The position numbers were made by a program, and so were the translations under genes. Shown here in pieces: positions 25,621-30,198 of a DNA stretch of 34,507 bases; within the stretch, counting starts at the first letter, position 1, and every line of letters begins with the position of its first letter. Origin of the DNA: Chamaesiphon sp. 336R_metabinner_41 (GTDB lineage Bacteria > Cyanobacteriota > Cyanobacteriia > Cyanobacteriales > Chamaesiphonaceae); contig JANYDE010000138.1 of assembly GCA_025359915.1 (NCBI GenBank), positions 1-34,507 of the forward strand, written 5' to 3'. A model generated the notes under the pieces. That model ran no database searches and was not told where the DNA came from. It saw only the letters and a list, made by a program, of their open reading frames with translations.

Positions 25621-26805
25621 ATGACAGGAACTAGTCTAGGCATTCCAAATCTCAATCTGACTAGATTGAAACAACCGTCAATTAGTATTCTGACCAAAAT
25701 CCAGTCTCATGGCGTATTGTTGGTTTTACAAGAGCCAGACTTAACGATTTTACAAGTTAGTAATAATACAATCACGGCATTTGGAATCGCACCAACTTGG
25801 ATGCTGGGCAAGCCTTTAGAGCAAATTTTAGATATTTTCCAAGTGGAGCAATTTCGAGCAGAATTACTCGAAGAAACTCTCGATCGACACAATTCTAGCA
25901 AGGTTTGGATCCGTAAGCATACAGATGAATATAGTATCTTTGATGCTGTTTTTCATCGGAGTCCTGATGGATGTCTGATGCTCGAATTGGAACCAACCTC
26001 AAAAAATGAGACTATTCCTTTTCTAAGTTTTTATCATTTAGCGAAAGCGGCGATCGATCGATTGACCATCACGGCTAATTTACCAGTTTTCGGGCAAATT
26101 GTCACCGCCGAAGTCCGCAACATCACTGGATTCGATCGCGTGATGCTGTACAAGTTCGACGATGATGGGCATGGGGAAGTAATTGCCGAAGATAAAGTCG
26201 CCGAGGTGGAATCCTATTTGGGCTTACATTTCCCTGAGTCGGATATTCCCCAATCAGCGCGGGAGCTATTTGTCGCCAACCGGATTCGGGTGATTCCTGA
26301 CGCTCGCGAGGAGGGCGTAGAGCTGATTCCCGCTCAAAATCCGCTGACAAATCTACCCACAGATCTGTCGCTGTCGATCCTACGTAGTCCGGTGCCTTGT
26401 CATACCGAGTATCTTCAAAATATGCATGTCGGGGCATCTTTGACGATTTCCCTGGTGAAAGATGGACAGTTGTGGGGGATTATTGCCTGTCACAATCGGA
26501 CAGCTAAATTAGTGTCCTATGAATTGCGGAAGGCTTGCGAACTGCTGGGGCAGGTGATTTTTGCGGAGATTTCCACTAACGAGGATTTGGCGGATGCTAA
26601 ATATCGATCGGAATTAGCGCGTAATCAATTTGTGGCACTCGATCGAATATCGAGATCTACGAGCTTTGTTGAGAGTCTAATGGGACAATCACCCAATCTC
26701 TTGGATCTGGTTGATGCTCAAGGTGCGGCGATTTATTTTGGCGGTAATTGGACAACTCTCGGCAAAACGCCCGCTACCGTAGATCTCAATTGTCTGATGC
26801 AATAG
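25621..26805 (+). CDS. Cyanobacterial phytochrome, photosensory half (PAS-GAF-PHY), ends at in-frame TAG
   Basis: 394 codons from ATG (GAGG 7 bases upstream). Residues about 20-120 form the PAS domain (ILQVSNNTITAFG), and about 150-310 the GAF domain, with FPESDIPQSAREL, the PASDIP-type bilin-pocket motif. Cys260, in RSPVPCHTEYLQNM, aligns with the Cys259 of Cph1 that attaches phycocyanobilin. The PHY domain begins at about 330 and is cut by TAG at 26803-26805 after CLMQ. The next codons continue the same frame (26806-27909) and restore PHY and the kinase. Homologues have Trp in an LxxWL context here, so TGG became TAG. Alone this half could fold as a photoreceptor without output. Confidence 0.85.
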   Translation: MTGTSLGIPNLNLTRLKQPSISILTKIQSHGVLLVLQEPDLTILQVSNNTITAFGIAPTWMLGKPLEQILDIFQVEQFRAELLEETLDRHNSSKVWIRKHTDEYSIFDAVFHRSPDGCLMLELEPTSKNETIPFLSFYHLAKAAIDRLTITANLPVFGQIVTAEVRNITGFDRVMLYKFDDDGHGEVIAEDKVAEVESYLGLHFPESDIPQSARELFVANRIRVIPDAREEGVELIPAQNPLTNLPTDLSLSILRSPVPCHTEYLQNMHVGASLTISLVKDGQLWGIIACHNRTAKLVSYELRKACELLGQVIFAEISTNEDLADAKYRSELARNQFVALDRISRSTSFVESLMGQSPNLLDLVDAQGAAIYFGGNWTTLGKTPATVDLNCLMQ

Positions 26806-27909
26806 TTGGTCAAAAACGTCAAAGATGAAGTATTTTCCACCAACTCCCTCTCCTTACTAGATCCAGATACCGAAACCTTTAAAGATATTGCCAGTGGACT
26901 AATCGCGATCTCGCTCTCGCCCCACAGTTATCTATTGTGCTTCCGCCCAGAAGTGATTCAATCGATGAATTGGAGTGGAGATCCAGATCGTGCTTTCCAA
27001 CTAGTCGAGAACGATGGTGATGTTCAGTTACATCCCCGTAAATCCTTTGAATTGTGGCGACAAACCATCACCGCACATGCTCTGCCCTGGAAGCTAATTG
27101 AGATTGAAGCAGCCATTGAACTACGCAAAGCTATTGCGAATATTGTCCTAGATCAAGCCGAAGCACTAGCTCTACTTGCTACCGATTTAAGACGATCAAA
27201 TACCGAACTGAGACAGTTTGCTCATATCGCTTCCCACGATTTGCAAGAACCGCTCAATCAGGTAGCTAGTTATGTCCAACTGCTGGAAACTCGCTACGGC
27301 AAAGAACTCGATCAAGATGCCAAAGAATTCATCGGTTTTGCCGTTGAAGGCGTAAACTTGATGCAAACTCTGATTGATGATGTATTACTTTATTCCCAAG
27401 TAGATTTCTTCGTGATCGAATGGGAACCGATCGATATCGAGATTGCTCTAGAACGCGCTCTAAGTCACTTACGCCGACAAATCACTGAAACAGGAGCGAT
27501 CATCACATCCGACCCGATGCCGACGATTGTCGCAGACAGTACACAGCTAACTCAGCTCTTCCAAAACCTGATTGGGAACGCGATTAAATTTCGCACGCCG
27601 GAGACAATTCCGCAGATTCAGATCTCCGCCACTCGACAACCCGACGACTGGTTATTTGCCGTAAGTGGGAATGGGATTGGGATCGATCCGCAGTTTTTCG
27701 ATCGAATCTTTACGATCTTCCAGCGTTTACATACTCGCGACGAGTACCCAGGTACGGGGATGGGCTTAACAATCTGCAAAAAAATCGTCGAGTGTCATCA
27801 TGGCAAAATCTGGGTAAATTCAGCATTGGGACAAGGTGCGACTTTTTCATTTACAATCCCTGTAAGGGGAGCGGGGTGGGGGGAGAACCGATGTAAGCTA
27901 ATTTGCTAG
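26806..27909 (+). CDS. Phytochrome, PHY remainder plus histidine kinase, in frame after TAG
   Basis: 367 codons in the same frame as the upstream half, so only the stop separates them. Residues about 1-100 complete PHY (SGLIAISLSPHSYLLCFRPE, then WSGDPDRAF). HisKA follows with the H-box SHDLQEPL (phosphorylated His at 27235-27237), and then HATPase with NLIGNAIKF and GTGMGLTICKK. The G1 box reads SGNGIGID, where DNGIGI is expected: the adenine-binding Asp is Gly (27667-27669). The kinase may therefore be dead even if the stop is read through. No ATG lies near the start, so independent expression would need the TTG at 26806. A hybrid kinase gene follows 210 bases downstream. Confidence 0.8.
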   Translation: MVKNVKDEVFSTNSLSLLDPDTETFKDIASGLIAISLSPHSYLLCFRPEVIQSMNWSGDPDRAFQLVENDGDVQLHPRKSFELWRQTITAHALPWKLIEIEAAIELRKAIANIVLDQAEALALLATDLRRSNTELRQFAHIASHDLQEPLNQVASYVQLLETRYGKELDQDAKEFIGFAVEGVNLMQTLIDDVLLYSQVDFFVIEWEPIDIEIALERALSHLRRQITETGAIITSDPMPTIVADSTQLTQLFQNLIGNAIKFRTPETIPQIQISATRQPDDWLFAVSGNGIGIDPQFFDRIFTIFQRLHTRDEYPGTGMGLTICKKIVECHHGKIWVNSALGQGATFSFTIPVRGAGWGENRCKLIC

Positions 27910-28119
27910 TTATAACAATGCCTACGATTGAAACTGGTGAGGATTTGATCGATGAAGATGTCTCAAAGGTAAATCATACCTGAAGTCAGCAACGCCCAGT
28001 AAGTAAATAGTGACTTGAGTCGCTGTCTAACCTACGACGCATTTATGTGAAGAATACAAGGAATTCCCGAATCAGTGACTTTTTAGTTTAGAATCCTGGG
28101 AAAGAATGACACAGAACAC

Positions 28120-30198
28120 ATGCTCGATAATCTGTCAAAATCTACCACCATCGCTCTGTCAAAAATAACTGGGACACGAACTGCGGATACCGAACATCCT
28201 GAAATTAAGATTTTGCTAATTGAGGATAATTTAGCTGATGCCCGATTGTTTAAGGAAATTCTCCAGGATGCCTGGGCTGATCGGCTAAGATTAGAACATT
28301 TCCAGCGATTGGGGGCTGCAATTAGCGAATTAGAGCGGAATCATTTTGATGTTGTGTTGCTGGATTTGACACTGCCCGATAGCGATGGTTTGGCTTCTGT
28401 GGATGTATTAACCCACCATGTACCTAGTTTACCGATCGTCGTATTAACCAACACCAACGATCCTGAATTGGCTCTGGATGCGATGCGGCATGGGGCGCAA
28501 GATTATCTCGTCAAACGTCAAGTCAACTTAGATATTTTAGTTCGATCGATCCGGTATGCGATCGAGCGCAAACAAACCACCGAAGCTCTACGGGAAATCA
28601 ATGAAACCCTGGAATTGCGAGTAGAAGAACGCACTGCCGCCATCGAAGCTGCAAACGAAGCTCTCAGTCAGGAAATCGGATCGCGAGAAAGTGCTCAAAA
28701 TCGGTTGGAATTAGCCCAAAAAGCTGGTAAGATTGGCACGTTTGAATGGGATATTAGTACCGATCAAGTTACTTGGTTGATCGAGTTAGAAACCCTCTAT
28801 GGGTTAGCACCAGGCAGTTTTGGACATACTCACGAGCAATGGCTCGAAGCTATTTATCCCGAAGATCGATCAATAGTGATCGCCGGACTAGCTAAATCGC
28901 GACAATTAGGACAGGAGTTAGAATTAGAATTTCGGATTGCTTATCCAGATCGGAATATTCACTGGATTGCCGTCAGAAGTAATGTCTTTCTAGATGATAT
29001 CGGCAATCCCACCCGTACCGTCGGTATTCACATGGATATTACCGAGAAAAAACAACTCGAATCGCAATTCTTACGAGCGCAACGATTAGAAAGCCTCGGC
29101 ACCCTCGCTAGTGGTATCGCTCACGACTTAAATAATGTCCTCACCCCGATTTTATCAGTCGCGCAACTATTACCACTGAGATTGACAAATATCGACGATC
29201 GTAGTCAAAATCTGCTCAAGATCCTCGAATCCAGTGCCCGCAGAGGTGCAGACTTAATTAAACAAATTTTATCATTTGCCCAAGGAATCGAAGGCAAACA
29301 TCTCTGCATCCAACCCACTCACCTGCTGATCGATATCCAAAAAATCGTCCAGCAAACCCTCCCCAAATCGATCGAAATTGACAGAGATTTTCCCAGCAAC
29401 TTGTGGACAGTATTAGCTGATATGACTCAACTGCATCAGGTATTGATGAATCTCTGTGTCAATGCCCGCGATGCCATGCCCCACGGTGGTACCCTCAGTA
29501 TCGAAGCTGCCAATTGTTCGATCGATAAAACCTTTGCCAGTCAACATTTAGATGCCAAAATCGGGGATTATGTGATGATTAGCGTCAGCGATACTGGTAC
29601 CGGAATTCAGCCCCAACTCCTCCACCGAATCTTCGATCCATTTTTCACCACCAAAGAGATTGGCAAAGGCACTGGTTTAGGTTTATCCGCAGTACTGGGA
29701 ATCATCAAAAGTCATGGTGGGTTTCTCGATGTCCAAAGTCAAGTAAATCAGGGCACCCAAATTCATGTCTATTTACCCGCCTGTAATACCCAAATAGCTC
29801 CCCTCCAGAATGAGCCAGAACTGCCATCCGGTCAACAACAGTTGATTTTAGTAGTCGATGATGAACGAGCGATTTGTGAGCTAATCAAGACCACCCTAGA
29901 GACATATAATTATCGAGTATTAACCGCCGATAATGGTACTGACGCGATCGCGATTTATGCCGAACATTGCGACGAAATAGATAGTGTCCTGATTGATATG
30001 ATGATGCCAGTCATGGACGGCATCTCGACAGTCACCGCACTCCATCTCCTCACCCCCGATTTGCCCGTAGTCGCGATGAGTGGACTCAGCTCAGTTGAAG
30101 CCATTAATCAAGCCAACCGCTTTGGGTGCCGCTACTTTCTCGCCAAACCTTATACTACCCACGATCTACTCCAAGTTCTCGCCGACTGTACAAGGTAG
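28120..30198 (+). CDS. Hybrid sensor kinase: REC-PAS-HisKA-HATPase-REC
   Basis: 692 residues. REC1 about 28-150 (KILLIEDNLADARLF, phospho-acceptor Asp82 in LLDLTLPD). A coiled coil (about 155-200, ETLELRVEERTAAIEAANEA) leads to a PAS/PAC domain (about 205-320). HisKA follows with SGIAHDLNNVLTPIL, His335, then HATPase (NLCVNARDAMPHGG, VSDTGTGIQP, GKGTGLGLSAV) with intact ATP boxes. The C-terminal REC (about 575-690) has Asp626 in LIDMMMPVMDG. No membrane helix is present, so it is cytoplasmic. REC1 could receive phosphate from the phytochrome kinase encoded just upstream. That pairing is inferred from position only. Confidence 0.95.
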   Translation: MLDNLSKSTTIALSKITGTRTADTEHPEIKILLIEDNLADARLFKEILQDAWADRLRLEHFQRLGAAISELERNHFDVVLLDLTLPDSDGLASVDVLTHHVPSLPIVVLTNTNDPELALDAMRHGAQDYLVKRQVNLDILVRSIRYAIERKQTTEALREINETLELRVEERTAAIEAANEALSQEIGSRESAQNRLELAQKAGKIGTFEWDISTDQVTWLIELETLYGLAPGSFGHTHEQWLEAIYPEDRSIVIAGLAKSRQLGQELELEFRIAYPDRNIHWIAVRSNVFLDDIGNPTRTVGIHMDITEKKQLESQFLRAQRLESLGTLASGIAHDLNNVLTPILSVAQLLPLRLTNIDDRSQNLLKILESSARRGADLIKQILSFAQGIEGKHLCIQPTHLLIDIQKIVQQTLPKSIEIDRDFPSNLWTVLADMTQLHQVLMNLCVNARDAMPHGGTLSIEAANCSIDKTFASQHLDAKIGDYVMISVSDTGTGIQPQLLHRIFDPFFTTKEIGKGTGLGLSAVLGIIKSHGGFLDVQSQVNQGTQIHVYLPACNTQIAPLQNEPELPSGQQQLILVVDDERAICELIKTTLETYNYRVLTADNGTDAIAIYAEHCDEIDSVLIDMMMPVMDGISTVTALHLLTPDLPVVAMSGLSSVEAINQANRFGCRYFLAKPYTTHDLLQVLADCTR

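Follow-up and report, generated by a model that had tools for sequence, protein, structure and literature searches.

Does a Chamaesiphon phytochrome kinase gene that is interrupted by one in-frame stop codon still signal, and if not, what was lost first? The window, meaning the whole stretch of 34,507 nucleotides that was analysed (Chamaesiphon sp. 336R_metabinner_41, contig JANYDE010000138.1), carries a phytochrome frame at 25621..27909, whose sole stop before its end is the TAG at 26803-26805, codon 395. A search of the same genome with the PHY family independently reported one TAG within this PHY match. The features of the locus, all on the forward strand, are the following.

25621..26802, + strand: phytochrome part before the stop, 394 aa that cover PAS, GAF and the initial third of PHY (Pfam, ORF)
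26398..26400, + strand: codon TGT of the bilin-attachment residue Cys260 (homologue alignment)
26803..26805, + strand: in-frame TAG, codon 395, where homologues have Trp (TGG) (alignment)
26806..27909, + strand: phytochrome part after the stop, with the rest of PHY, HisKA and HATPase_c, ending in TAG at 27907-27909 (Pfam, ORF)
27235..27237, + strand: codon CAC of the H-box residue His539, retained (alignment)
27667..27669, + strand: G1-box position 683, GGG (Gly); GCT (Ala) in L004 (alignment)
27910..28119, + strand: gap where relatives have an Rcp-type response regulator gene, with no recognisable remnant (blastn/tblastx)
28120..30198, + strand: intact REC-PAS-HisKA-HATPase-REC hybrid kinase, which comes after the regulator in relatives (Pfam, comparison)

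Before the stop, Pfam recognises PAS_2, GAF and PHY profile positions 9-62, and after it PHY positions 68-182, HisKA and HATPase_c. Taken over the two halves, the inherited gene has the Cph1-type order PAS_2-GAF-PHY-HisKA-HATPase_c, which the TAG interrupts between positions 62 and 68 of the 183 positions of the PHY profile, leaving a translated product with neither a complete PHY domain nor the tongue. The PRxSF tongue region of PHY stabilises the Pfr state; the cut removes it, so that only PAS, GAF and roughly a third of PHY remain. Codons 1-394 are 71-72% identical to the corresponding parts in the related genomes G002 and G006, and the half after the stop shows 71-76% identity with Chamaesiphon relatives. 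In a tblastn comparison with the G002 locus L004 the alignment spans 1-749 with unchanged length, hence the split amounts to one codon and is not a chance juxtaposition. A single in-frame TAG interrupting a Cph1-type phytochrome kinase is thereby confirmed.

The gene, read through with X at the stop, was aligned with 91 homologues, 82 of them close (>55% identity) and nine more distant. The alignment omitted the window's own copies and, by name or as duplicate proteins, ten fetched loci, which include the duplicates L023 and L029, the partial loci L019, L025, L097, L098 and L100, and L093 with an identical protein. Column 395 is Trp in 91/91 homologues, none of which has the inactivating TAG, and the codon is TGG in all 82 close ones. 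A change of one codon is the simplest cause, as originally proposed. Nine loci were rechecked at this column (L017, which is in the alignment, and L019, L023, L025, L029, L093, L097, L098 and L100); eight reach it and all eight have Trp, while L097 stops short. In the sister protein L023, aligned to Cph1 (2vea_A), the column falls on Trp394 of the chain. Cys260 is Cys in 82/82 close homologues. The original prediction had thus given the stop position, the domains, Cys260 and the Trp column correctly. The picture it set against its own reading, homologues that normally end here and have a separate kinase gene, has no example among those aligned: none of the 91 ends at codon 395 or replaces the C-terminal half by a separate kinase gene, and neither these nor the eight rechecked loci have a stop there.

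The surroundings of the gene have changed as well. In relatives, the gene next downstream of the phytochrome encodes an Rcp-type response regulator, and the REC-PAS-kinase-REC hybrid comes after it. Counting a regulator as present if a match of >45% identity over >100 aa lies within 1.5 kb downstream, we found it at 84 of the 86 full-length close loci, a few of them mutual duplicates; the only two without it, L004 and L023, are both the single G002 locus, and the L004 sequence is cut at 435 bases while that of L023 is not. The 1.5 kb downstream in the window likewise hold no Rcp-type regulator, the only match being the first REC domain of the hybrid, at 32%. Both G006 and G003 retain the regulator, and their two copies are 90% identical, while its best match anywhere in the window's own genome is 47% identical and in G002 36%. 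The hybrid kinase alongside is intact and keeps its receiver and ATP-site motifs.

We also considered a regulator remnant in the 210-base gap and dropped it, as a comparison of 27910-28119 with six regulator regions by blastn and tblastx gave only short matches with E values of 0.08 or worse. That the gap is a multi-copy element was ruled out, since only a 34-base piece of it recurs: the stretch 27963-27996 has counterparts, at 94%, on C81 and C6, two other contigs of the genome.

A second change lies in the ATP site of the kinase itself. The G1-box Asp of histidine kinases is required for ATP binding. At this position, 683, Asp is present in 81 of the 82 close homologues (GAT in 68, GAC in 13), and the sole exception is L004 of G002, with GCT for Ala and a change of the next residue too, giving ADGIG. 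The window has GGG and reads GNGIG, so the Asp of DxGxG is missing, while G003 and G006, which kept the regulator, have DNGIG. The H-box His539 is retained in ASHDLQEPL. As GGG differs from both GAT and GAC in two bases, the change is not a single recent slip. Loss of the G1 Asp predicts a dead kinase in both the window and G002.

In the tree, the window gene and L004 are separated from the rest with a bootstrap value of 100, and the regulator and the G1 Asp are both missing in exactly the two genomes of this clade, with the G002 frame still open. We infer a tie between the two losses from one lineage with two genomes, that is, from a single coincidence and not from a tested correlation. The G002 locus can be followed in L023 (188-4585), where an open-frame phytochrome with ADGIG for DNGIG and without a response regulator directly abuts the hybrid kinase; its product is predicted to be a kinase-dead protein in an intact frame.

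At columns with 97% conservation among the remaining close homologues, counted leaving one sequence out, the window gene departs in 27/296 and L004 in 26/305 cases, followed by L014 with 16/301; L005 has 9/302. The difference between the window and L005 gives a Fisher P of 0.0017, phylogeny not being allowed for. Over 305 columns, the window and L004 have 16 departures in common, while 18 belong to the window and 10 to L004. The 9-column shared decay could instead be adaptation to a new partner.

Selection was estimated for six taxa with our own script, by codon likelihood under branch classes, and the figures cover the whole window branch. On this branch omega came to 0.195 for the codons upstream of the stop and 0.277 for those downstream; the intact hybrid kinase gave 0.237. 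A value of 1 was rejected in each case (2dlnL of 51.85, 21.84 and 58.32, respectively), while equality with L005 (0.92, 0.85 and 0.56) and with L004 (2.18, 1.20 and 1.97) was not. A loss of purifying selection on the window branch, with omega near 1, was therefore sought and not found, the values being 0.20 and 0.28. Relaxed selection limited to the half after the stop looked suggestive at first sight (0.28 versus 0.20, with 0.04 and 0.07 in the background class). We rejected it, as the differences from L005 and L004 are not significant in either half and omega in the intact neighbour is 0.24; the background branches are saturated, several with lengths of >2 neutral changes per codon, and the contrast with them is not to be trusted. 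The similar omega of the intact hybrid kinase is also a counterpoint to decay in general.

The fact that omega lies below 1 on both sides of the stop, as in the intact relatives, indicates that most of the branch predates the stop and that the gene was constrained for most of it. Of the single neutral changes in this gene, 3.85% would create a stop, and no second in-frame stop is present among the 761 codons. By arithmetic at the 95% level, this caps the neutral period at ~0.1 changes per codon, on a branch of 1.2 to 1.5. Constraint over most of the branch and the lack of a second stop leave three options, a young stop, an error or a gene that still works; the earlier losses of the regulator and the G1 Asp favour a young stop. 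The selection figures give no direct evidence of decay after the stop, as a recent stop, an assembly error and a working gene would all give the same picture.

With a probability of roughly 0.72, we read the locus as a Cph1-type phytochrome histidine kinase undergoing stepwise loss, an orphaned system in which the stop came late. In the common ancestor with G002, the partner Rcp-type regulator would have been deleted and the ATP-holding Asp of the G1 box lost, which would have ended the usual kinase signalling. The frame may then have stayed open for some time, as it is in G002 today, until recently, and in the window lineage only, the Trp codon became TAG. The present product, PAS-GAF with about a third of PHY, could still bind bilin; with the tongue of PHY and all of the output module gone, it would probably no longer signal.

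An unlikely alternative is that the stop is an error of the consensus, or a variant carried by a minority, in a draft genome, and that the real frame is open like that of G002 and encodes a phytochrome of full length whose kinase is predicted to be dead. The assembly is indeed a draft (G000; 4.23 Mb, 169 contigs, estimated contamination 3.42%), one G-to-A difference suffices, and omega on either side of the stop fits an intact gene. However, all 55 ABC_tran matches in this genome are free of stops and the window's remaining ORFs are unbroken, so errors are not widespread in the assembly; single transitions of this sort also arise commonly by natural mutation.

It also appears doubtful that the short PAS-GAF bilin protein is kept without its kinase for a function of its own, for instance by binding the first of the REC domains in the hybrid kinase. 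Both Cys260 and the 394 codons before the stop show conservation, the neighbouring hybrid is unbroken and keeps the motifs of its receiver and ATP site, and the kinase would already have been expendable in the ancestor common to G002. Yet the cut lies inside PHY, off any domain border, and takes away the tongue, to which a stable Pfr is ascribed; no aligned homologue ends at this codon, and any constraint on the first half beyond that on the second is not separable from L005 or L004. A related and similarly improbable reading is that the protein has been a kinase-dead light sensor since the G002 ancestor, acting directly on the adjacent REC-PAS-kinase-REC protein and reduced here to a bare PAS-GAF by the stop.

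Programmed read-through or suppression, which would yield a short sensor and a full-length kinase in regulated proportions, was the other possibility raised by the original prediction. The frame stays open for 367 codons past the TAG with omega below 1, but most observations speak against it, and we consider it very improbable. ARAGORN typed the 39 tRNA places found in the genome and none has the anticodon CUA, in a set that is incomplete and lacks tRNA-Ala and Ile(GAU). The release factor 1 gene prfA is present (508.8 bits), and among the 25 ORFs of the window counted as genes, the final codon is TAA in 15, TAG in 7 and TGA in 3. Together with the stop-free ABC_tran matches, these findings argue against a genome-wide reassignment of TAG, which we set aside; TAG seems to be a normal stop codon here. 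The stop is not kept in relatives, as all aligned and rechecked loci that reach the column have Trp. The base right after the TAG (+4) is T, and the part of PMC5289835 available to us reports that +4U lowers read-through in E. coli, mainly for UAA. An extended protein would, moreover, still be without the G1 Asp and so carry a predicted dead kinase. Translation re-starting past the stop, at the in-frame TTG that immediately follows it (26806) or later, to give a separate PHY-kinase fragment and a two-piece phytochrome, is just as hard to credit, as no GGAG/AGGA-like ribosome-binding run occurs in the bases preceding this TTG and the fragment would start within PHY and lack the G1-box Asp.

Stepwise loss, the preferred reading, can be set beside known systems. 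The closest is Cph1/Rcp1 of Synechocystis (PDB 2vea): the window gene keeps the PAS-GAF-PHY plan and the bilin Cys, the sister protein L023 matches 2vea_A over 5-515 with an E value of 4.1e-176, and the gene's relatives have an adjoining Rcp-type regulator. It differs in the stop within PHY, the loss of the G1 Asp and the lack of an adjoining regulator or a close one elsewhere. A natural one-step break of a bacterial phytochrome is described, in the accessible part of PMC6899989, for bphP1 of Rhodopseudomonas palustris CGA009, where one small change likewise breaks an otherwise intact gene. There, according to the same part, the change is a frameshift with suggested laboratory selection, in contrast to the nonsense change here, and bphP1 has a PAS9/HOS output and the partner PpsR2, with no prior loss of a partner or a kinase residue mentioned. 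DrBphP of Deinococcus radiodurans resembles the window gene as a phytochrome with a histidine-kinase module whose kinase activity is undetectable (PMC8292422, as far as its available text goes). In that text it is, however, a light-sensitive phosphatase acting on its own cognate regulator, whereas the window and G002 are without one at the locus. DivL of Caulobacter, according to the accessible portion of PMC4211667, is a histidine-kinase homologue with a new role that has no autokinase activity and binds ATP poorly; unlike the window gene, which keeps the H-box His and has lost the G1 Asp, its phospho-acceptor is Tyr. In the available parts of the open-licence literature this gene was not found named, and the one paper linking Chamaesiphon with phytochrome concerns CcaS in glacier MAGs.

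The case would be one of ordinary gene loss, but its order may be readable from living relatives, with the losses under an open frame in G002 followed by the stop of the window. It thus offers a small, testable example of a light-sensing two-component system falling apart, and G002 serves as a warning that an open frame does not imply a working kinase.

The PHY search of the whole genome returned, besides this locus with its one TAG, one other match without a stop (L156 2887-6778, minus strand, contig C81). It belongs to an intact protein of 1,297 residues with the order GAF-PHY-GAF-GAF-HisKA-HATPase-REC and a PCH motif typical of bilin binding. Given this intact GAF-PHY sensor, red-light sensing need not be lost. 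The proposed loss of light signalling therefore need not hold for the genome as a whole, while it probably stands for this gene, whose kinase output was probably gone before the stop arose, the regulator and the G1 Asp being missing.

Of the eight other genomes of the genus, G002, G006 and G003 have an orthologue, that of G003 being a contig-end piece with 76% identity. For G001, G004, G005, G007 and G008 no orthologue of >60% is among the matches listed; with completeness values of 82, 91, 99, 89 and 77%, respectively, some of these absences may be gaps. G001 has a hybrid kinase 78% identical to that of the window. Just upstream of it, on contig C112 (L171 1-125), KRVAFSLTIPI follows stops within the 125 bases before this gene, a possible but weakly supported scrap of a phytochrome C-terminus. 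Its score beats 1999/2000 Markov shuffles over 11 columns and 1998/2000 over 9, while over 15 columns 358/2000 shuffles reach it; 17/3000 random 125-base pieces from three fetched loci score equally high, and the blastn E value is 0.43.

Two further phytochrome-like copies were seen. One, on contig C258 of G002 (L144), is a phytochrome-like frame, the second of that genome, with 1,176 residues and 66% identity to the first half of the window gene, of which no counterpart of >60% was seen in the window's genome. The other lies in G020, a member of a different family, on contig C304 (L019/L172), where no regulator match was found; this related phytochrome has stops at the window-equivalent codons 336, 342, 359 and 377 and is thus an independently broken copy.
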